This document shows, piece after piece, positions 9,654-63,943 of a stretch of DNA of 64,000 bases (its first letter is position 1; each line of letters begins with the position of its first letter). Below the pieces are notes generated by a model. The model did not search any database and had not been told where the DNA came from. It worked only from the letters and a program-made list of their open reading frames with translations. A program made the position numbers and the translations under genes. Location: positions 162,304 through 226,303 of the IMG/VR virus record IMGVR_UViG_3300042319_002138; one strand, 5' to 3'. This DNA is from a virus.

Positions 9654-9661
9654 TATTTATA
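9654..9661 (+). promoter_or_regulatory. TATTTATA element
   Basis: Exact copy, 12 nt before the ATG of the lysozyme gene. Confidence 0.5.
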
Positions 9662-18573: not shown

Positions 18574-20016
18574 ATGTCAAGATTAACTGAAGCATTACAA
18601 ACTGAAAACACAACCACTAAGAACGGGATGGAAACTAATTCATCTTCTCTTAATGAGTGTGTTAACCTTTTCTTCTCCATTGGAGCAATGAGAGGTAAAA
18701 GTTCTGAGAGTGTTGTAAAACTTTTCTCAAAGGCTTTCAGTGAAGAACCAACTACAGCATTAAGAATCCTTTTTTGGGCAAGAGATGTTAGAGGTGGTGC
18801 TGGTGAGAGAAAAATCTTTAGAGATATTTTATCTTACCTAGTTGATAACTACTCAAAAGTAGTTAAAGTTAATCTTAACTTAATTCCTGAATACGGGAGA
18901 TGGGATGACGTTCATATCCTTTTCGGAACTGAATTGGAAAATGACGCCATCACACTTCTTGTAGAAGGTTTAAAAAGTGGTAATGGTTTATGTGCTAAAT
19001 GGATGCCCCGTAAAGGTTTGGTATTTAATAAAGTACGTAAAGCACTTAAGTTGGACCCAAAATCCCTTAGAAAATTACTTGTGTCTTTGTCAAACACGGT
19101 AGAACAAAAAATGTGTTCGAAAAGTTGGGCAGAGATTGAGTATTCAAAGACACCATCTTTGGCTATGTCAAGGTATACAAAAGCTTTTGGCAGAAACGAC
19201 CAAGAAAGATTTGGTCAATTTATTGAAGCCCTTCAAAAAGGTGAAACTAAAGTTAACGCCGGAGCTTTGTATCCTTACGATGTTACCAAGAATCTTAGAT
19301 TCGGTAATAAAGATTTGGCTAATGAACAATGGAAAGCCCTACCAAATTATATGGAAGGTTCAACAGAACTTGTCCTACCTTTGGTTGACGTTTCAGGTTC
19401 AATGGATTGTTCGGTAGGAGGTAATCCAAACCTTACATGTATGGAGGTGGCTATTTCTTTGGGTATGTACATCTCTGAAAGAAATGAGGGAGCATTTAAA
19501 GATATGTTTATGACATTTTCTTCAAATCCCGAAATTCAAAAATTGATGGGTCCACTTAGTGACCGTTACAATCAATTAGCTAGAGCTAAATGGGGTATGT
19601 CAACTAATTTAGAAGCAGCGTTCAAGACTATCTTGAATCAAGCAGTTAAATTTGGTGTTCCACAGGAAGAGATGCCAACAAAGATTCTTATCCTATCCGA
19701 TATGGAGTTTGATTCCGCTACTAGTAGTGGTTGGGGAAATGAATCTGATTGGAATCCCTCGGCTATGTCGATGATTGATGAAATGTACACTAACGCTGGT
19801 TATGTAAAACCTGGAATTATTTTCTGGAACCTACATTCCAACGGGGGTAATTTCCCAGCAAGATTTGATGAGGTTGGAACTGCTTTAATTAGTGGTTTCA
19901 GTCCATCAATCTTGAAATCGGTTCTGAATAATCCTAACAGTTTAACACCTGTTAATATTATGAATGAAACCGTACATTCAGAAAGATATGAACCTGTAAA
20001 GGTTTGGATTCTTTAA
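18574..20016 (+). CDS. Ro60/TROVE-related DUF2828-like protein with vWA domain
   Basis: The 480-residue protein has an N-terminal helical-repeat part containing FWARDVRGGAGERKIFRDI at about 66-84, typical of the DUF2828/TROVE-type ring scaffold. From about 270 there is a von Willebrand A domain with the MIDAS motif DVSGSMD, a later Thr-type ligand loop and ILILSDMEFD. In Ro60 the same two-part layout forms a ring that binds small structured Y RNAs and misfolded RNAs. The gene is followed directly by a large structured RNA with its own terminator, which supports an RNA-binding role by analogy. The function in this phage is inferred. Confidence 0.75.
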   Translation: MSRLTEALQTENTTTKNGMETNSSSLNECVNLFFSIGAMRGKSSESVVKLFSKAFSEEPTTALRILFWARDVRGGAGERKIFRDILSYLVDNYSKVVKVNLNLIPEYGRWDDVHILFGTELENDAITLLVEGLKSGNGLCAKWMPRKGLVFNKVRKALKLDPKSLRKLLVSLSNTVEQKMCSKSWAEIEYSKTPSLAMSRYTKAFGRNDQERFGQFIEALQKGETKVNAGALYPYDVTKNLRFGNKDLANEQWKALPNYMEGSTELVLPLVDVSGSMDCSVGGNPNLTCMEVAISLGMYISERNEGAFKDMFMTFSSNPEIQKLMGPLSDRYNQLARAKWGMSTNLEAAFKTILNQAVKFGVPQEEMPTKILILSDMEFDSATSSGWGNESDWNPSAMSMIDEMYTNAGYVKPGIIFWNLHSNGGNFPARFDEVGTALISGFSPSILKSVLNNPNSLTPVNIMNETVHSERYEPVKVWIL

Positions 20017-23229: not shown

Positions 23230-23466
23230 ATGGAACCAAAAAAACTTTTAAAAATACATAGTTTTTTATATGGTATAAATGAAATCTTAGGATATAAGGG
23301 TAATACTATTATAGAGACTGATTATATCTACGCACCATATTTACCTATGTTTATAGAAGAAGATTTTAGACCTAGGCAAGGGATTGCTTCAAGGTATGCA
23401 CGAAAAATCGTGAATAACAATTTTTATGGGAGAGTTACACTTGGAGCCGATACGCAAAATACCTAA
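23230..23466 (+). CDS. Capsid-protein (gp23) C-terminus-like fragment
   Basis: The 78-residue product contains IYAPYLPMFIEEDFRPRQGI followed by a SRYARK/NNNFYG stretch. This resembles the C-terminal end of T4 gp23-type major capsid proteins, where an APYxP motif, a short loop and a GxxTRYG-like segment occur. It is far too short for a capsid protein. It overlaps the next fragment by 41 nt in another frame. It may be a remnant or a small accessory protein derived from the capsid gene. Confidence 0.45.
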   Translation: MEPKKLLKIHSFLYGINEILGYKGNTIIETDYIYAPYLPMFIEEDFRPRQGIASRYARKIVNNNFYGRVTLGADTQNT

Positions 23467-23851
23467 ATTTAATTTTGACAATTCAATAAATTTTAATTTT
23501 AATTCTTACACTGTTAATGCGGGTGCAAGAACAATACGTGCAACATGGTCACCCGAATTAGCACAAGATTTACAAGCATACCACGGGATAGACGCTGAGG
23601 CTGAATTAACGAGGTTATTATCTGAGGAATGGGCTAGAAGTATTGATAGAGAAATTATTAATACTCTTCTTGCTCAAGATTTAATAACCGTACAACCATT
23701 AGGCCGACCAATCGGTCATCTTTTTTATTTCGATTCCCAATACGAAACATTCGAACCTAAAGTTTATGACGATGGTTCTTGGAGTCTAAAAAATATTTTT
23801 GAAAGTTCCATTGGTTTTAAAATAGAAATATCCCCACATAAGTTTATTTAA
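23426..23851 (+). CDS. Capsid-protein (gp23) middle-region-like fragment
   Basis: Residues about 30-75 of this 141-residue product (ARTIRATWSPELAQDLQAYH, then GIDAEAEL, a LLSEE helix and IDREIINTL) match the highly conserved middle segment of T4 gp23-like major capsid proteins. The remaining sequence is not gp23-like. In a normal gp23 this part precedes the APYxP end, so here the order of the two pieces is permuted and the frame differs. It may be a rearranged duplicate or a capsid-binding mimic. Confidence 0.5.
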   Translation: MGELHLEPIRKIPKFNFDNSINFNFNSYTVNAGARTIRATWSPELAQDLQAYHGIDAEAELTRLLSEEWARSIDREIINTLLAQDLITVQPLGRPIGHLFYFDSQYETFEPKVYDDGSWSLKNIFESSIGFKIEISPHKFI

Positions 23852-28277: not shown

Positions 28278-28358
28278 TTAATTTCTTTTATATTCAATAT
28301 AGGCCCAAACACCAACAAATATTGGGGTTAGTATAGCAATAACTATTTCTGTATTCAT
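28278..28358 (-). CDS. 26-residue membrane microprotein coupled to the type IX protein
   Basis: The reading frame MNTEIVIAILTPIFVGVWAY followed by IEYKRN is one membrane helix with a short basic tail. Its ATG overlaps the stop of the 735-residue gene as ATGA, the usual sign of translational coupling. It may anchor or help export its partner. Too short to classify. Confidence 0.5.
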   Translation of the reverse strand: MNTEIVIAILTPIFVGVWAYIEYKRN

Positions 28359-30562
28359 CGCATAATTGTTAAATGTCCTGTTATCATTTTACGTGAGTCA
28401 TCATACTCAGACCCATACATTATTCTCCAAACATAAATCCCATCAAAACACATTTTATTATTATAAGTACCATCCCAACCAACGGTATGATTGTATGATT
28501 CAAAAATTGTTTCACCCCATCTATTGAATACCAATAAATTATAATCATAGACATCAAACCCATCAGTAAATATTGGTAACCAAATATTGTTGAAAGCATC
28601 ACCATCGGGGGTAAATGTATTAGGTATATAAATTAATTCTTGTGGACATTCTTGTATTGCTATATTAGCTTGTTCTTCATTAGAAACACAACCATTAACC
28701 GTTTGGGAAACGCTAATTGTATAAAAACCAACATTATTCCAAACATAAGGTAAACTATTATCTTGTATTGTATCACCTTCAACAACCCAATCAAACAACC
28801 CAGATAAAGATGAATAAGCTGTATAGATTCTAAAAATACTATCACCTTCACAAAGTTGGTTAAATTCATATGAAGGTGTTACAGATGTTATGATTGGTTG
28901 TGGGTTTACAATAACGTTGATTGTTGTATCAAATGGGCAATTACTTTGTGTATATGTATAAGTTACATCATTGTTTGTTATGATACCTTGTTGTGGGCAA
29001 AATTCATCAGTCTGAACCCCATTGACTAAGAAAGTACCATTTAAAGGTGAACCCACTAAATCTACACAACCATCATAATCACAAAAAGGACCAATAGGGT
29101 CTATTGTAGGGTTTATGTTTAAAATAAATGTAGTGAAGTAAGAGGTATCACTATTACAACCAATAGGACTAGTAGAATAAACACTTATAGAGTCTTGATA
29201 TAAACCACTAGGTTCTAATGACCAATCCGTTGTTATATTATCAGTACCTTGACCATTTATTATTTGTGGTGTTGTAGACCATATGTAGTTGTAACCAACA
29301 CCCATAGAAGGTACACTATAACTTTCTGATGTTGATAAATAACATACCGTATCAGGACCACTAATAGGTGTCATTATTATTTGTGCTGGGTTAGTGAGTG
29401 TTGCATTACCTGTTACGGTACAACCTATACCGTCTGTAATTAAAAAACTATAATTACCATAACAAAGGTTAGTGGGGTTAAAAGTTGTTTGTAGAGTATT
29501 CCAAGAAATAGTAGTGACACCATTGGTTCCGTTAGGGATTACATTAATACTACCATCACAATAGTTATAACAAGTTGGGTCAATAAAAGTAATTGTAGGT
29601 TGTGGTAAGTTAGGTGGACCAGGTTGTACAAACACCGTATCAGGTCCTGGACCGGCAATACTATTACAAGTATTCCATCCAACATTACAAGAAGGATATA
29701 CTAGTTGACAAGTATAATTAGCTCCTTGTACAGGTGGTGTAACCGTAATGGACGCACCAACCCCAATTGGATTTGGGTTACCTACAATATACCATGTTGG
29801 TACAGGTAAAACAGTTGGTCCACTTGGAGTGTATCGGTACGCATCATTATTTGCTGTCCATTGTGTGGAATTCCTACCTGGTACAGTTATCGCCACGGTT
29901 CCTGTGGTATTATGTAATCCTTGAACCGCGGTACCTCCCGCCCAAGCTAGACAGTTTGGTTTTGATTGAATATAATTTTCTATTACGTTTGTTGATTCAT
30001 AAATCACTGTATGAAATGTCCCCAGTAAATTTGTACATGAAAACATAGGGACACCAACCCAACTAACAACTAATTTTCTACAAGGTGCTGTACCTTGAAC
30101 TTGGTACCTAATTTGCCCACCTAAACCTGGGTGCCAATCTTGCCAAGGACCCATGACACAATTTTTTGGTACTGTACCCGCACCATTAGGTATTGTTGCT
30201 GAAGTAAATGTTGTTGGTTGTGCCGGTGAAAAAGAAATCCAACCGTTAGAACCAACCCAAAATTGATTGTATGTTTGTCCAAAGAAACAAAATGTAAACC
30301 CAATATTAAAAGGACCTTGTTGTGAATCATCCGACATAAATAATTGTGTACCAGTATTTGTTTGTGTTACATAAGGAATATTTGTAACACCGTAGTTTGT
30401 TGTTTGATTTGGATTTGAACCTGGTCCACATTGACTAAAATCGGCAGTTAATGTTGTTGACCCAACACCACAAGGTAGTATTTGGTCTGGTCCTAAATAA
30501 GGACAGTATTGTGAATAGGTCACAAAAGAAATTAGTATAAAAAGGTATTTAATTAAGTTCAT
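28355..30562 (-). CDS. Secreted protein with type IX secretion (type B) C-terminal domain
   Basis: The 735-residue protein begins with a signal peptide (MNLIKYLFILISFVTYSQ). Its body is Gly/Pro/Thr/Asn-rich beta domains, including a region like the nidogen/MAM-type or PKD-like domains of Bacteroidota surface proteins. The last about 90 residues (IPNTFTPDGDAFNNIW, FNRWGETIFES, WDGTYNNK, YVWRI) are the gliding-motility-associated C-terminal domain, which is the signal for type IX secretion to the surface. Such a protein would use the host machinery to reach the cell exterior. Surface alteration, such as superinfection exclusion, is a guess. A TATTTATA element precedes it. Confidence 0.8.
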   Translation of the reverse strand: MNLIKYLFILISFVTYSQYCPYLGPDQILPCGVGSTTLTADFSQCGPGSNPNQTTNYGVTNIPYVTQTNTGTQLFMSDDSQQGPFNIGFTFCFFGQTYNQFWVGSNGWISFSPAQPTTFTSATIPNGAGTVPKNCVMGPWQDWHPGLGGQIRYQVQGTAPCRKLVVSWVGVPMFSCTNLLGTFHTVIYESTNVIENYIQSKPNCLAWAGGTAVQGLHNTTGTVAITVPGRNSTQWTANNDAYRYTPSGPTVLPVPTWYIVGNPNPIGVGASITVTPPVQGANYTCQLVYPSCNVGWNTCNSIAGPGPDTVFVQPGPPNLPQPTITFIDPTCYNYCDGSINVIPNGTNGVTTISWNTLQTTFNPTNLCYGNYSFLITDGIGCTVTGNATLTNPAQIIMTPISGPDTVCYLSTSESYSVPSMGVGYNYIWSTTPQIINGQGTDNITTDWSLEPSGLYQDSISVYSTSPIGCNSDTSYFTTFILNINPTIDPIGPFCDYDGCVDLVGSPLNGTFLVNGVQTDEFCPQQGIITNNDVTYTYTQSNCPFDTTINVIVNPQPIITSVTPSYEFNQLCEGDSIFRIYTAYSSLSGLFDWVVEGDTIQDNSLPYVWNNVGFYTISVSQTVNGCVSNEEQANIAIQECPQELIYIPNTFTPDGDAFNNIWLPIFTDGFDVYDYNLLVFNRWGETIFESYNHTVGWDGTYNNKMCFDGIYVWRIMYGSEYDDSRKMITGHLTIMR

Positions 30563-31479: not shown

Positions 31480-33405
31480 ATGGATAAAAATTTTTACATT
31501 AATAAATTAAATAAAACTTTAATTTCACAAACACATAACCCTCTTTTTTATAAAGGGGATATAGTAGAAGGTTCTAAAATTCTAACTAAAGAAGTTGTAG
31601 ACTCAATTAATGTTGATAGATGTTCTATATGGTTATACAACAAAAATAAAACATCTATTGTTTGCCAACAATTATATGTTAAATCTGAAAATATGTGGTA
31701 TGATGGTTTAGAAATCTTTGAAAAGGATTTTGGACCGTATTTCGAAGAATTAATAAAGAACCCAATAATAATAGCTAATGATGCTGAAAAACATCCAGCA
31801 ACATCTTGTTTTACTGATGGTTATTTAAAACCACTGGGTATTAAATCTATGTTAGATGTACCTATCATTTATTTTGGGGAAACTATTGGTGTTATATGTA
31901 TTGAAAGTTTTACATTACGTGAATGGGATTCTTTTGAGGTTGATTTTACTCAATTATTATCTTCTTTATACACTTTTGCTTATTCAATAAAAGAAACAAA
32001 CAATTTAAATAAAAAAATAGAAGAAACAGAAAAATTTATTGACGTATCGACAATTATATCTACTGCTGATAAAAGAGGTAAAATTACATATGTTAATAAA
32101 AAATTTGAGGATGTTTCTGGGTGGTCTTTGGATGAGGTAGTTGGTAAAGACCATGTTATTGTTAATTCGGGATTACAACCTGATGGATATTGGGGTAAAA
32201 TGTATGAAACGGTAATGAAAGGTGATGTATGGAATGACGTTGTTACCAATAAAGGAAAATCAGGAGAATTATATTACGTTGATACTTTTATTAGAGCAAT
32301 TTTTGATACCGATGGTAAATTGGATGGATTTGCTTCAATAAGACAAGATGTTACAGAACTTAAAAAAAAGGAAGTTGAAATTCGCAATAGAATGAACGCG
32401 ATAAATAAATCTAACGCAGTTATTGAGTTTGATTTAGAAGGAAACATCATTTTTGCTAATAATTTGTTTTTAGAAACTATGGGATATTCTTTACAGGATG
32501 AAGTAGTTGGAAAACACCATAGAATTTTTATAGATGAGGAATACTCAAAAAGTGAAGAATACTCTCTTTTTTGGGAAAAATTAAATGAAGGGGTGTTATT
32601 TACCGGTGAAATTACTAGAATTAAAAAAGACGGTTCTTTAGTGTATCTACAAGCAACATACAATCCAGTTATCGGTTTAGATGGTAAGGTTTATCGTGTT
32701 ATGAAAATCGCGACAGATATCACCAATTCCTACGAACAAAAGAAAGAAATTGAAAAGAAAAACACTTACCTAGAACATGCGGCTAAAATATTAAGACACG
32801 ATATGCATTCAGGTATTAATACTTATATGCCAAGAGGATTAAGTTCTTTAGAAAGAAGATTAACCCCCGAAGATATTAAAACTTTAAAAATTGAGGCCCC
32901 AATTAAAATGATTAAAGAGGGTTTAAAACATTCCCAAAAAGTATATAAAGGGGTTTACGAATTTACAAATCTTGTAAAGAAAGATGTTGTTTTAAATAAA
33001 ACGGAATGTAATTTAAAAGATATACTTGAGGATTATTTATCAGCGACAGCATATAGTAGTCAAGTTATTATTGATGAGTTACCAACGATAGAAGTTAATG
33101 AACCATTATTCTGTACCGCAGTCGATAATTTAATTCGTAATGGGTTAAAGTATAATGATAGTAATACAAAATTTGTTAAAATATATATGGAAGATGGTAA
33201 TCTAATTATACAAGACAACGGTAGAGGGATTACACAAAAAGATTTTATTCATTTATCCCAACCATATACCAGAAAAGAAGGCCAAAAAGAATCTGGAACT
33301 GGTCTAGGGCTTAATATATGTGTAGCTATTTTAGAAGAACATAAATTTAATATTTCGTGTGAGAAAAATGACATAGGGACAAAAATGAAAATTGAACTAA
33401 AATGA
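31480..33405 (+). CDS. Cytoplasmic GAF-PAS-PAS histidine kinase
   Basis: The 641-residue protein has a GAF domain (about 20-165), a PAS domain (about 185-300) and a second PAS (about 305-420), each PAS followed by a PAC-like end (FASIRQDVTELKK, MKIATDITNSYEQ). A histidine phospho-acceptor region with H440 in ILRHDMHSG and a HATPase domain (DNLIRNGLKYN, IIQDNGRGI, GTGLGLNICVAILEEH) complete it. No membrane segment is seen, so it senses an internal signal. The kinase core closely resembles that of the second kinase at 34013, a likely duplication. Its stop overlaps the next start as ATGA. Host-encoded kinases look like this; presence in a phage is unusual. Confidence 0.88.
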   Translation: MDKNFYINKLNKTLISQTHNPLFYKGDIVEGSKILTKEVVDSINVDRCSIWLYNKNKTSIVCQQLYVKSENMWYDGLEIFEKDFGPYFEELIKNPIIIANDAEKHPATSCFTDGYLKPLGIKSMLDVPIIYFGETIGVICIESFTLREWDSFEVDFTQLLSSLYTFAYSIKETNNLNKKIEETEKFIDVSTIISTADKRGKITYVNKKFEDVSGWSLDEVVGKDHVIVNSGLQPDGYWGKMYETVMKGDVWNDVVTNKGKSGELYYVDTFIRAIFDTDGKLDGFASIRQDVTELKKKEVEIRNRMNAINKSNAVIEFDLEGNIIFANNLFLETMGYSLQDEVVGKHHRIFIDEEYSKSEEYSLFWEKLNEGVLFTGEITRIKKDGSLVYLQATYNPVIGLDGKVYRVMKIATDITNSYEQKKEIEKKNTYLEHAAKILRHDMHSGINTYMPRGLSSLERRLTPEDIKTLKIEAPIKMIKEGLKHSQKVYKGVYEFTNLVKKDVVLNKTECNLKDILEDYLSATAYSSQVIIDELPTIEVNEPLFCTAVDNLIRNGLKYNDSNTKFVKIYMEDGNLIIQDNGRGITQKDFIHLSQPYTRKEGQKESGTGLGLNICVAILEEHKFNISCEKNDIGTKMKIELK

Positions 33406-34016
33406 TAAAACTAAAAAATTTATTAACCATATTTTTCATAAGTATGGTAAGTATAGTGTATTCACAACCAACCTACCCTATCCAGACACAATTAAAAGGT
33501 GATTCTGTGGTTATTCTTACAAAAAAACAATCTGATGATATTAATTCACTAATTGAGAATCAAAAAATTAGAATACAAAAATATAAAACAGAAATAAAAT
33601 TAGTTAATGATACTAACACGTTATTAAATAACGATATTAAAATAAAAGATAGTGTTATTAACCAATTGGATAGTTTGTTAACCGTCCAAAACAATTATTA
33701 CGATAGTTTAATTTCTAAAATAGATACGTTAGAGAATTGGATTTTATCGTCGTCGATAGATAATGGGTACCTATATTATTCTTGGCAAGACTCAACAGTT
33801 AAAGTTATTGATTTAAGTTTGTATATGTTAGTATCGCATAGAGGAAGTGGTAATTATAGTTTAATTACAAGAGGTGATGTTACTAATATATATTATTGGA
33901 AACAAATAAATCTACTTAAAGAAGAAAGTCCTGAGATTGGTTGGGAATTAAATATATCCCCAAAATATAAACCAAGAATAGTATTATTCCCATATAAATT
34001 AACCCCAAAATTATGA
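33402..34016 (+). CDS. Exported coiled-coil protein between the kinases
   Basis: The 204 residues have an N-terminal signal peptide (LLTIFFISMVSIVYSQ), a coiled coil at about 45-115 and a small C-terminal domain. Overlapping start and stop codons on both sides (ATGA) tie it to the two kinase genes. I infer a periplasmic accessory or sensor protein for the membrane kinase that follows. Confidence 0.6.
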   Translation: MIKLKNLLTIFFISMVSIVYSQPTYPIQTQLKGDSVVILTKKQSDDINSLIENQKIRIQKYKTEIKLVNDTNTLLNNDIKIKDSVINQLDSLLTVQNNYYDSLISKIDTLENWILSSSIDNGYLYYSWQDSTVKVIDLSLYMLVSHRGSGNYSLITRGDVTNIYYWKQINLLKEESPEIGWELNISPKYKPRIVLFPYKLTPKL

Positions 34017-35416
34017 TAAAAAATATTTTAATAACAATAATGTTTTTGGGTTTTTTTACTTCTTTAAATGTAAATTCACAGACTGATAATAACCCCAAAA
34101 AAACAGAGATTGAACCTACATGTCCTAGTGATAGTCGTATAACTAGTTTAATTAAAAAATTAAATTACGAACCAAATAAAAAATTAACTAAATACCAATC
34201 AAGCTTATGTCAAGAAATTGGTATCTCTTTTTATAATAAAGGTATGTATGATGAGTCAGATTGGTATTTAGATAAGGTTAGTACCTATATTGATGTTGTT
34301 GATTTAAAACCTGAAAAAGTTTTTGACACACCTAAAGAAGAACCCGTACAAGAGTTAAGTGACTCAGAATTATCTAGTATTAAAGCCGACCAAAAATTTT
34401 TAGATGACCTACCAAAATCATACGATAATTTATCTAAAAAAGATATAAAAAAAATTGCTGATGAGATAGAGTCAAAACTCCAAAAACTATTAAAAGAAAA
34501 AAAAGAATTATTAAAAAATAAAGCTAGTCAAGAAGTTATCAGTTCTAAAACAAGTACTATACAAATATTAGGTAAAGAAAAAAATATCATTAATCTTAGT
34601 GTTAAAAATGATGATTTAGTTACCGATAAAAAAACCTTAAAAAAATATTTATGGTGGTCCACAATTGTTCTTTCTGTTTTGGTTTTAGGTATTATTGTTT
34701 TATTACAAAGAAAAACAATTAAAGTCCAAGACATAGAAATCGAAAACCAATTAAAAGACATTAACAAGAAAAACACTTACCTTGAATATGCGGCTAGAAT
34801 AATTAGACACGACATGCATTCAGGTATTAACACCTATATACCAAGAGGGTTATCGTCATTAGAAAAAAGAATTTCAATTGAGGAAATGAATAACTTAAAA
34901 ATTACACCCTCAATTAAAATGATAAAAGATGGTTTGGCACACACACAAAAAGTATATAAAAGTGTTTATGAGTTTACAAACCTTGTGAAAAATACTGTAG
35001 TTTTAGATAGAAATATGGTTGATATAAAAGAATCTTTATTAAAATACTTAACAAATACATCATATAAAAATCAGGTAGAAATTAGTGAATTAGTTACACT
35101 AAATGTAAATGAAACTCTTTTTTGGAACGCTATTGATAATTTAATTAAAAATGGGTTAAAATATAATAGTAGTGAAAATAAAGAAATTAAAATTTACATG
35201 GATAATAATGATTTAATTATTGAAGATAATGGTGTTGGATTTTCACAAAAAGAGTTCGAAAGAACAACAGGTGAATATTTAAATAAAAAGAGTAATTCCG
35301 AAGTTGGTTTAGGTTTAGGTATAACCAAAACAATTTTAGAAGAACATGGTTTTAGTATGATGTGTGAAAAAATTAACACTGGTACAAAAATAACGGTTAA
35401 ATTAAATAAAAATTAA
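34013..35416 (+). CDS. Membrane-bound histidine kinase
   Basis: The 467-residue protein has a signal peptide/anchor (ILITIMFLGFFTSLNVNSQ), an exported helical region with TPR-like character (about 30-200), a membrane segment near 213-232 (LWWSTIVLSVLVLGIIVLL), the phospho-acceptor H266 in IIRHDMHSG, and a HATPase domain (DNLIKNGLKYN, DNGVGF, GLGLGITKTILEEH). The catalytic core is about as similar to the first kinase as a recent duplicate would be, while the sensor parts differ. It would report an outside signal. The receiver gene starts 7 nt downstream. Confidence 0.85.
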   Translation: MIKNILITIMFLGFFTSLNVNSQTDNNPKKTEIEPTCPSDSRITSLIKKLNYEPNKKLTKYQSSLCQEIGISFYNKGMYDESDWYLDKVSTYIDVVDLKPEKVFDTPKEEPVQELSDSELSSIKADQKFLDDLPKSYDNLSKKDIKKIADEIESKLQKLLKEKKELLKNKASQEVISSKTSTIQILGKEKNIINLSVKNDDLVTDKKTLKKYLWWSTIVLSVLVLGIIVLLQRKTIKVQDIEIENQLKDINKKNTYLEYAARIIRHDMHSGINTYIPRGLSSLEKRISIEEMNNLKITPSIKMIKDGLAHTQKVYKSVYEFTNLVKNTVVLDRNMVDIKESLLKYLTNTSYKNQVEISELVTLNVNETLFWNAIDNLIKNGLKYNSSENKEIKIYMDNNDLIIEDNGVGFSQKEFERTTGEYLNKKSNSEVGLGLGITKTILEEHGFSMMCEKINTGTKITVKLNKN

Positions 35417-51141: not shown

Positions 51142-51735
51142 CTATTGGGTTATTAAAAATTTTTTATAGTCTGTTGTTAGTGGTTTTTCATTTTTAAAAT
51201 AATAAGTTTCTTTCTTACCATCATAATTTATTATTTTATAAAATCCGTCTGGTATTGTAGCTCCCGAAGGTAGTACAACAGATTTTTTTGAAAATACACA
51301 TCTTATTTCAACAGTTACTTCATATTTTAAAGCCAAAGTCCTTTCATGTTCTTCTAATAATCTCCATGTAGTTCTATTTAAATCTTGATTTTGTAAAACA
51401 CAATTTAAATAACTAAAAGTCATTTTTAACATTTCTTTGGTACAATTAAAATCGGCTGCTGGAGCCATATGACCTTTATCCCAAATGTTGTTAATATAAT
51501 CTTGATTGTCTGATGTCTTAATTGAATCATTACTATAAAAATCCATACCCTTTCTTGAGGCATTTCCTGTAGGGCATTCTACAACATATTCAATCCATTT
51601 TGGTTGTTCTAATTTCTCTGAATAAACCAAAGTAAAAATTTGGGTTTCTATATAGATACTATCACGAAGTTTACTTTGTGAAAACGTTTTAAGTATTATA
51701 AATAAAAACAGTGTGATGGTTAATATTTTTCTCAT
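51142..51735 (-). CDS. Secreted DNA/RNA non-specific endonuclease (NUC1 family)
   Basis: I start at 51735 (MRKILTITLFLFIILKTFSQ), which gives a signal peptide and a TATTTATA element 5 nt upstream. The 197 residues include WDKGHMAPAADF, the D-(R/K)-G-H motif with the catalytic His, and a downstream Asn/Glu-rich metal site (SYLNCVLQNQDLNRTTWRLLE). The family degrades DNA and RNA. An exported phage nuclease could digest periplasmic or extracellular DNA, including incoming phage DNA. Confidence 0.85.
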   Translation of the reverse strand: MRKILTITLFLFIILKTFSQSKLRDSIYIETQIFTLVYSEKLEQPKWIEYVVECPTGNASRKGMDFYSNDSIKTSDNQDYINNIWDKGHMAPAADFNCTKEMLKMTFSYLNCVLQNQDLNRTTWRLLEEHERTLALKYEVTVEIRCVFSKKSVVLPSGATIPDGFYKIINYDGKKETYYFKNEKPLTTDYKKFLITQ

Positions 51736-57995: not shown

Positions 57996-58388
57996 GGGGG
58001 TGTTTTTGGATTTGACTGGTTAACGATTGGTAATGGGTAAGCATGTCGTGAAATAATACTATCACGTTAATACACGTATTGAAACTTCAAACGGCGACGT
58101 ATTCGCAAACGCAACTGTAGGTCACTTTGTGACTGAAGGTGCAACAGTAGCTGCCTAATCATATTAGGTGTTACTACGGGGTCGGCAGACATATAACCTA
58201 GCAACAGAAGTCGTAGTTGTGGTGGATTATCATTGAACCCAAAATCGAATGATACCCATTGTTTGTTGATTTACAATGGTAAATAATAAATCAAATATTT
58301 TGTCCATTTAGATTAAAATGGAATAAGCATGTAGAAGACGTTAGTAATGTAACGCAGGACGAGGGTTCGAAACCCTCCACCTCCACCA
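57996..58388 (+). ncRNA. ssrA: tmRNA (transfer-messenger RNA)
   Basis: The 5' GGGGGTG pairs with 3' CACCTCC, including a G3-U pair like tRNA-Ala; T arm GAGGG-TTCGAAA-CCCTC; discriminator A and an encoded CCA. The tag reading frame probably resumes at GCA 58105 (after GTATTC) and encodes ANATVGHFVTEGATVAA with stop TAA 58156-58158; the AA end suits ClpXP recognition. tmRNA rescues stalled ribosomes and tags incomplete proteins. Full length, with a host-type promoter and boxA. Confidence 0.95.
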
Positions 58389-62727: not shown

Positions 62728-62759
62728 AAAAAAGGTGGGATATCCCACCTTTTTTTTAT
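62727..62759. terminator. Bidirectional intrinsic terminator
   Basis: AAAGGTGGGATATCCCACCTTT palindrome with A and T runs, between convergent genes. Confidence 0.9.
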
Positions 62760-63835
62760 CTATAAATCTTCTTATTTGTTCCATCAGAGTACACCTCAAA
62801 AAAGAACCCTCGGTAATCTTTATCTACCACTTGACCTAACAAATTAACGTATTTAATAACCACTTTCTTTGTTGTTCTGTTATCGATTGATATTGGTCCA
62901 TATATTTTATATTCACCATTAAAATCTACTTGGGTGATTCTATAGTAATTTATTGTTTCTCTAAAATTGTTATCTAAAAAACTATACTCCATTACTTGGT
63001 TACTATTACCAGCTGCGGTTTTATTACCTATAACCGTACTTTCATTAAACTCACCTGTGGTAGAACATTCAATTAAATAATAATCTGAATTATGTTCGGA
63101 AGCGGTTTTCCATACTAGTAGGTTACCCTCCTCATGGTTTGTACCTTCAAAAGAAATCATTTCTACTGGTAGTGGGAATATTTCTATCAATTCAATATTA
63201 TCAATCCACCATTCCTCACCAGCTGAATTTACTCTACAAAAAATATCGATTGCTATTTGAGAAATTCCAGATGGGAGATTCAAAGTAACCGTAGACGGTC
63301 CCGTTGTAGTTGAACCTGCAGGAGCTTGATATATGTCACCTGTTGGAGCCAAAGAATTTGTATATGAACCATTTGCATTATGACTGATTACACCTGTTGC
63401 AGTGTATGGCCAAATTGCATTTGCATTTCCTGTAATTCTAAGCTCAGAAACATATGCGCCTCCATTTCTTGAAACTTGAACTTCAACTAAATCTGTAGCA
63501 TCCAATCCACGTGTTAATGCCGTTGGACCTGTAAATGTTTGTGACGCTAAACGGAATTTTAATTGGTATGGATGTGATGTATTTAACCCTGTAATATTTG
63601 GTAATACATACCAAGCTTGTTCAACTCCAGAAGTTCCACTTCCAGCTCCATATATTACAGCACTCTGAGTAGGAGAAACTGATATATTTGTTGCCCACGT
63701 TGCTGTTGGTGCTCCAAACCAACCAGAAGTTGCGTAACCTGTTGACCATGTTTCCATGTAGTCATATTGAATAACAGTTTGACCATATGACAATGTACTT
63801 AATAATAAAAATAACGATAATAATAATTTTTTCAT
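62756..63835 (-). CDS. Secreted protein with type IX secretion (type A) C-terminal signal
   Basis: I start at 63835 (MKKLLLSLFLLLSTLSYGQ), which gives a signal peptide. The 359 residues comprise a lectin/MAM-like beta-sandwich (about 20-235), a fibronectin-like segment (VWKTASEHNSDYYLIECS, NYYRITQVDFNGEY) and a C-terminal KYVNLLGQVVDKDYRGFFFE segment ending in KKIYR, as in type A sorting domains. Such proteins are exported by the host type IX system and attached outside. Together with the 28355 protein this is a second surface-directed phage product. Confidence 0.75.
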   Translation of the reverse strand: MKKLLLSLFLLLSTLSYGQTVIQYDYMETWSTGYATSGWFGAPTATWATNISVSPTQSAVIYGAGSGTSGVEQAWYVLPNITGLNTSHPYQLKFRLASQTFTGPTALTRGLDATDLVEVQVSRNGGAYVSELRITGNANAIWPYTATGVISHNANGSYTNSLAPTGDIYQAPAGSTTTGPSTVTLNLPSGISQIAIDIFCRVNSAGEEWWIDNIELIEIFPLPVEMISFEGTNHEEGNLLVWKTASEHNSDYYLIECSTTGEFNESTVIGNKTAAGNSNQVMEYSFLDNNFRETINYYRITQVDFNGEYKIYGPISIDNRTTKKVVIKYVNLLGQVVDKDYRGFFFEVYSDGTNKKIYR

Positions 63836-63943
63836 AATGTATTTATTTATAATTATCTTAATATAAGAATTGCGTTTATTATTGTACATAAATTTTTAAT
63901 AAAAAATAAATGATGAATGCTTTTTTAATTAGAAATAAGTTAT

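Follow-up and report, generated by a model that had tools for sequence, protein, structure and literature searches.

A phage family of predicted type IX secretion cargo with a shortened, PNP-less putative sorting tail

In this study, we analysed the final 64 kb (hereafter the window, 64,000 nucleotides in all) of a 226,303-bp virus record from a giant phage, whose host is probably a member of the Bacteroidota, and found near its end a gene whose product, in our judgement, is probably exported as a cargo by the type IX secretion system (T9SS) of that host. The predicted protein belongs to a protein family found in large phages and joins a signal peptide, a MAM-like jelly-roll, a fibronectin-type-III-like (Fn3) domain and a short tail that appears to be related to the type A C-terminal domain (CTD) of T9SS cargo. 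The gene and its parts are as follows.

62756-63835, minus strand: predicted type IX cargo gene, start ATG at 63835, stop TAA at 62756-62758
63782-63835, minus strand: predicted Sec signal peptide, residues 1-18 (MKKLLLSLFLLLSTLSYG), followed by Q19 (hydropathy scan, alignment)
63188-63781, minus strand: MAM-like jelly-roll, residues 19-216 (VIA-align fold match)
62882-63187, minus strand: fibronectin-type-III-like domain, residues 217-318 (FNIII fold match)
62759-62881, minus strand: short tail, residues 319-359, a PNP-less half-CTD with the LGQ glycine and a DG motif (alignment, profile-profile match, model)

The open reading frame (ORF), present in the ORF listing of the window at 62756-63835 on the minus strand and 359 aa long, has the coordinates and the strand given for it in the original prediction. 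Its product begins with MKKLLLSLFLLLSTLSYGQ and ends with KIYR. A longer frame from an ATG at 63889 is possible; we took ATG 63835 as the start because the signal peptide that begins there aligns with those of relatives, and the gene call is backed by alignment with 26 of these. Since no more than 165 nt separate the start of the gene from the end of the record, the question arises whether host contamination or mis-assembly at a contig end could have placed it there. This explanation is effectively refuted: an identical protein occurs in two other viral contigs, each of which also carries an identical copy of the type B cargo described below, and a scan of IMG/VR, in which 44 candidate stretches yielded 41 relatives, placed the family at 40 distinct viral loci, four of them with a capsid-gene neighbourhood (the capsid gene being confirmed in one). 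Homologues are thus not restricted to bacterial chromosomes, in which, within the genomes searched, few relatives of the N-terminal domain were found. The same 40 loci and capsid-gene neighbourhood, together with the record's own Gp23 gene (206 bits) and a whole-gene dN/dS of 0.09-0.20 in eight pairs, bear out the earlier suggestion that the gene is no chance acquisition, and the family is under purifying selection. The closest major capsid proteins in named phages are those of Microcystis and Flavobacterium phages (42-44%). Far from the main capsid gene, two fragmentary Gp23 matches (65 and 26 bits; G000:C1:185587-185974, window 23284-23671) possibly mark a second, split capsid-like gene.

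The window also encodes a tmRNA (57996-58388, plus strand; tag ANATVGHFVTEGATVAA) and 24 tRNAs. Two histidine-kinase-like proteins are encoded on the plus strand, one of 641 aa with a GAF-PAS-PAS-HATPase arrangement (31480-33405) and one of 467 aa with a Q-rule signal peptide, a later hydrophobic segment and a HATPase domain (34013-35416), and an exported protein of 204 aa lies between their genes. A minus-strand gene at 51142-51735 combines a signal peptide with an Endonuclease_NS domain (2.6e-24), so that its product is predicted to be an exported DNA/RNA non-specific endonuclease, and the gene at 18574-20016 (plus strand) matches the RNA-binding protein phrog_850 with 498 bits; its product is presumably TROVE/Ro-like.

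Export of the cargo protein by Sec is well supported at the level of sequence. The signal peptide is predicted from a hydrophobic N-terminus and from Q19, the predicted +1 residue, which is invariant in all 27 aligned family rows; in row L040 the start used lies too late, and the DNA upstream of it encodes a signal peptide. The underlying family alignment (A1) omits 14 of the 40 loci as near-duplicates and includes the truncated L027 and L028, which are left out of alignments A2 and A5 and of the domain-incongruence test. According to the accessible text of PMC5837995, most substrates of signal peptidase I in Bacteroidetes have a glutamine as their new N-terminus after cleavage (the Q-rule). 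In a first step that we regard as strongly supported, host Sec would export the cargo and signal peptidase I would expose its glutamine.

Behind the signal peptide, the predicted model of residues ~18-219 matches the MAM domain 8a28_A (VIA-align, Z 10.3, rmsd 3.3, 141 residues aligned) and human meprins (Z 9.6), most of residues 16-69 being modelled at a pLDDT below 50. The original prediction of a lectin-like sandwich is supported by fold as regards the sandwich, which is MAM-like, whereas "lectin-like" describes a resemblance of fold only. The same applies to the likeness to the MAM jelly-rolls of meprins, LAST-MAM and receptor phosphatases, which is one of fold only; Pfam MAM gives no sequence match in the cargo protein or its family. 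A fibronectin-like segment had also been proposed, and the fold supports it: residues 221-321 match the FNIII domain 2ic2_A of Ihog (Z 10.2, rmsd 2.8, 95 aligned; Z 10.4 in a second fold search), with Pel3 as the top fold row (Z 11.6), and Pfam fn3 gives no sequence match despite the FN3 sandwich fold. The module can be recognised by the pattern LPVE...W.TASEHN...YYR..Q.D..G. Most of the residues that are invariant in the 27-row alignment fall in the MAM-like domain, which we refer to as the binding domain.

The C-terminal tail had been called a type A sorting signal, and this is half right. None of the 27 family members, the window protein included, matches TIGR04183 or PF18962 at E<=0.1, and the PNP motif of type A CTDs, which we take to be motif A, is absent from the aligned family tails. 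As a positive control, all 20 PNP-bearing bacterial tails that follow the same Fn3 module match TIGR04183, a control that is favourable to itself in being limited to PNP-bearing tails. These 20 tails, which make up alignment A3, were drawn from 26 extracted bacterial C-termini (23 distinct) by leaving out the duplicates L066, L067 and L068, the PNP-less L044 and L069 (the only two such tails among the 23) and L048, which has the motif. The part of the prediction that holds concerns the LGQ glycine and the C-terminal end, both of which are kept. When profiles are compared with each other, the family tail aligns with the second half of bacterial type A CTDs at a probability of 55.5 (E 1.2e-4), which is a match of moderate strength. 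The LGQ glycine (G20), which is aligned with a CTD glycine, is one of only two residues, both glycines, that are invariant across the 23 tails of alignment A2 (from which L024 and L031 are omitted in addition to the truncated rows), and in the distant phage tail L109 it is replaced. The C-terminus is basic in most rows of A2, its lysine (motif C-t) not being invariant.

A model of the Fn3 domain and tail (mean pLDDT 91.4) shows four strands within the final ~35 residues, of which one spans just two residues; these strands may correspond to beta3, beta4, beta6 and beta7. We tentatively equate the first invariant glycine of the tail with the glycine of the L-beta3-beta4 loop (motif B), G699 of RgpB; secretion of RgpB is blocked when arginine takes the place of this glycine (PMC11285876, section 2.3). 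Elsewhere in the accessible part of that article, the signal of HBP35 is mapped to the last 22 residues and type A CTDs are described as having seven strands, and the portion of PMC10202324 open to us names CTD types A, B and C and suggests that motifs B, D and E contact PorV. A PDB sequence search with the tail returned HBP35 at E 0.98 and one other entry at E 9.7, neither of them significant. Compared with type A CTDs, then, the window protein is alike in its signal peptide, in the Fn3 module upstream, in the glycine of the LGQ loop and in a similar C-terminal end, and different in a tail of ~40 residues that lacks PNP, has four predicted strands instead of seven and matches no curated model. 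As two defining features, the curated match and the PNP motif, were looked for and not found, we file the protein as T9SS-cargo-like and not as a member of the type A CTD class, and regard its tail, as far as sequence goes, as a probable shorter, PNP-less relative of that domain.

The C-terminal module also occurs in bacteria. The family profile matches at least 130 of 296 Bacteroidota genomes, mostly within the Fn3 module among the matches listed, and in the bacterial proteins fetched, some of them from the Bacteroidota order considered below, this module is usually followed by a PNP-bearing CTD. Ten of 17 weak phylum-wide matches of a tail profile likewise coincide with the LGQ segment of PNP-type CTDs; the other seven comprise the short tails L090-L092, the unrelated L095, L100 and L103, and L105, which was not recovered. 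L090, L091 and L092, three of the top phylum matches, have a C-terminal short tail without PNP and signal-peptide-like N-termini; L090 is PHA-depolymerase-like and L092 beta-glucanase-like, both below curated cut-offs, and L091 is CotH. In one Bacteroidota order, a profile built from short tails, these three included, matches at least 166 of the 249 genomes; phylum-wide it matches at least eight of 296. We inspected 31 ORFs at the 30 best-scoring loci of the order, that is, the best-scoring ones among the matches in the 166 genomes: the tail lies within 8 aa of the C-terminus in all of them, the Fn3 module is present in 26, and PNP occurs in the last 150 aa of none. By a crude pattern, at least 12 of the 31 have a signal peptide with glutamine, and a number of the remaining ORFs are truncated at the limits of the DNA retrieved.

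These data bear on a different reading of the tail, in which the protein is exported by Sec, stays in the periplasm or associated with the outer membrane, and carries the tail as a structural remnant and not as a T9SS signal. The failure of curated T9SS models to detect the tail would fit such a remnant, as would its four modelled strands against the seven of solved type A CTDs in the accessible part of PMC11285876. However, the tail shows a dN/dS indicative of selection (0.14-0.29 in six of eight pairs, undefined in two), forms the C-terminus of every one of the 31 bacterial ORFs, and is borne by L090 and L092, which resemble extracellular enzymes, so that we think the remnant reading unlikely. 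We consider it instead quite likely, as a second step, that the Fn3 domain and short tail would be read by the host T9SS, with SprA as translocon and probably PorV as shuttle, and would thereby take the cargo across the outer membrane.

The distribution of SprA is consistent with such a role for the module at the level of the phylum. Among the matches listed, SprA is found at E<=0.001 in all 130 genomes positive for the family profile (in 129 above the cut-off, with G270 marginal), and the family profile matches none of 67 SprA-negative genomes (Fisher 1e-20, relatedness ignored, up to six candidates per genome being scored). Within the order, where SprA occurs in 245 of 249 genomes and, among the matches listed, in 164 of 166 tail-positive ones, the gene is so nearly universal that its co-occurrence with the tail says little. 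The phylum sample has SprA in eight of eight tail-positive genomes among the matches listed (p=0.21).

Few bacterial relatives of the binding domain were found in the sets searched: scanning genome contigs with the single protein gave none, a profile scan gave one (L042, on a bacterial contig), and the 296 Bacteroidota genomes added, among the matches listed, two more. One of these, L111, has a signal peptide and an N-terminal domain of the same kind, with a canonical type A CTD (TIGR04183, 51.8 bits) following at once; the other, L112, is a large, multidomain exported protein. Enzyme-like users of the tail such as L090-L092, and L112 as a user of the N-terminal domain, lend some colour to the idea of an auxiliary cargo that alters the behaviour of the infected host, for example its adhesion to particles or polysaccharide. 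Domain-model searches recognised no catalytic domain in the cargo family, which argues against an auxiliary role of this kind, and we hold it to be quite improbable.

Binding domain and sorting module have separate histories. In 25 phage members, the trees of the two differ to the point that each alignment rejects the tree of the other (AU p 1e-56 and 6e-4), as illustrated by L003 and L039, with 87% and 47% identity in the two parts, and by L014 and L035, with 37% and 64%. The sorting module resembles bacterial versions and intermixes with them: in the tree of Fn3 domain plus tail, phage and bacterial sequences are interspersed, the best split grouping 18 phage and 2 bacterial sequences out of 25 of each. 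In the tree of the N-terminal domain, L042 falls among phage members, the nearest split having a local support of 0.19. An uncultured 462-kb phage (L108, LR756500.1) joins the Fn3 module to a full type A CTD (32.7 bits). Given this combination, and that of the N-terminal domain with a type A CTD in L111, the parts of the cargo appear to be modules of bacterial surface proteins that have been recombined in phages. L108 and L109 (LR756502.1), both from very large uncultured phages, are exported Fn3 proteins with different N-terminal domains, and the tail of L109 is short. Tentatively, and at a little less than even confidence, we propose that the Fn3 domain and the ~40-residue PNP-less tail form an unclassified T9SS half-CTD signal, corresponding to the part with motifs B and E, that is widespread in the order, and that large Gp23-encoding phages infecting this order have acquired and exchanged the module many times beneath a conserved surface-binding domain, which would keep a late secreted effector readable by the T9SS of the current host.

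The genomic neighbourhood of the family varies. In four of the 29 loci compared, the cargo gene stands at the end of a shared block of head genes: it is the immediate neighbour of the capsid cluster in L014 and L037, and is separated from it by a single ORF in L008 and L012; in L014, the locus in which capsid identity was tested, the cluster is the Gp23 major capsid gene, preceded by portal and head-protease genes. Ten loci have the same upstream gene (cluster c2, a DUF5872 gene in L023), with a small opposite ORF intervening in L011 and L013, and mostly a MoxR-like ATPase gene downstream; a GroEL gene is present in some of those with a long enough contig. A third neighbourhood is common to L031, L032 and L039, and a fourth to L029, L030 and L038. 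Ten phage records were also searched with the tail profile, which matched once in nine of them, at the family gene itself, and not at all in G308 (L031); no other protein in the ten records gave a match to the tail.

A position at the end of the head genes could also suit a virion-associated surface protein, that is, a Hoc-like decoration or adhesin of Ig-type domains on the capsid or tail, whose signal-like N-terminus serves some other use. Ig-like domains are common on virions, and the fold matches of the cargo include FN3 domains from the tail tip of T1 and the baseplate of DT57C. Yet a protein that is built into virions in the cytoplasm should have no use for an export signal, and all 27 rows keep one with its invariant glutamine; no head gene was found among the nine L023 and three L031 neighbours tested; and the same C-module ends bacterial proteins, of which at least 12 of 31 have signal peptides. 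A place on the virion therefore seems rather unlikely to us, and we return to secretion by the host as the preferred reading.

The third step of this reading, that the cargo would be made late, alongside structural and lysis genes, we hold in even balance. Two elements flank the cargo gene.

63844-63851, minus strand: TATAAATA box, beginning 16 nt before the cargo ATG
62728-62755, no strand: palindrome AGGTGGGATATCCCACCT with A- and T-run flanks between two convergent genes (read in the sequence)

Two observations suggest late expression: the head-gene neighbourhood seen in four of 29 loci, and the TATAAATA box, presumably similar to a T4 late promoter, which the cargo gene has in common with the endolysin and type B cargo genes, at -16 of both; the lack of a head-gene neighbourhood in the other 25 loci counts against it. 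In the window, the box occurs at 9658, 30578, 47270, 55277 and 63851, which is 15-17 nt before the ATG of the endolysin, the type B cargo, an HNH nuclease, a putative lipoprotein and the predicted type IX cargo, and these five sites compare with 1.87 expected, a weak excess since 8 of 100 shuffles reach five. As a late promoter of the whole family the box is not supported: it is exact in only two of 30 other loci, both from strains of the same phage as the window; it is found within one mismatch in 80 nt in 13 of the 30. In the 20-kb stretch around the capsid gene, no such box precedes the capsid, and one lies 30 nt before a 138-aa ORF. The palindrome, which the scan did not list, is likely a bidirectional terminator.

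The original prediction had set the gene beside a first type IX protein in the same phage, and this companion is real.

28355-30562, minus strand: 735-aa protein, predicted to be a type B cargo of the T9SS, in which a Q-rule signal peptide is combined with PKD-like and CHU_C domains (curated models)

Situated 32 kb away on the same strand, it scores above curated cut-offs, with CHU_C (PF13585) at 2.5e-12 and 47.2 bits (cut-off 27) and TIGR04131 at 43.2 bits (cut-off 35). The claim that one phage encodes two type IX cargos holds in that two are predicted; the labels "A and B" do not, the tail of the second being no standard type A. Homologues of the type B companion are present in five of 20 family-bearing records, three of these five being one phage. 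In an uncultured 635-kb phage, a relative of the type B protein (54.8% identical over 98%) occurs together with an ORF that has the Fn3 domain and short tail.

Phage-encoded T9SS cargo is already in print, judging from the accessible parts of two articles (PMC7468147, PMC6949934). In the first, the 76-kb Cryophage is described as encoding type A cargos (endoglucanase, GH39 and PA14 proteins) that vary between phage variants and for which a takeover of host secretion, serving competition or superinfection exclusion, is proposed. The window family resembles them in coming from phages that probably infect Bacteroidetes and in having a predicted sorting region for the T9SS, and differs from what is described there in its Gp23-encoding large phages, its MAM-like domain and a short tail that the models miss. 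The second, on crAss-BACON phages, describes T9SS sorting domains on phage proteins near head genes, a likeness to the present family; those proteins have BACON repeats, and the text accessible to us shows no domain common to both. The accessible text of three further articles (PMC10013915, PMC7113391, PMC12618676) holds nothing on phage T9SS cargo. What appears to be new here is the cargo family, the tail type and the module shuffling, for none of which a paper was found in a literature search whose scope mostly excluded subscription journals.

As to function, we favour binding to, or masking of, surface structures, both because T9SS-secreted gliding adhesins such as SprB and RemA may be phage receptors, as stated in the accessible part of PMC13288928, and because most invariant residues of the family fall in the binding domain. 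In this fourth step, which is speculative and in our view doubtful, the conserved MAM-like domain, held on the cell surface or released, would bind surface structures. The effect, speculative to the same degree, might be that receptors are masked on the infected cell or on debris, with superinfection exclusion or protection of progeny as the result. Competition between phage cargo and receptors of the SprB/RemA type is accordingly an idea for how superinfection exclusion might work (PMC13288928, from the text accessible).

If export holds true, the Fn3 domain and short tail would offer a compact model substrate for finding out which half of the CTD is read by the T9SS, and would draw attention to a group of secreted bacterial proteins missed by the curated models used here. 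For the phages, type IX export is a route found in print for two phage groups, as far as the accessible texts go (PMC7468147, PMC6949934), and the family described here would mean that a conserved protein of large phages acts outside the infected cell by way of the type IX system of its host.
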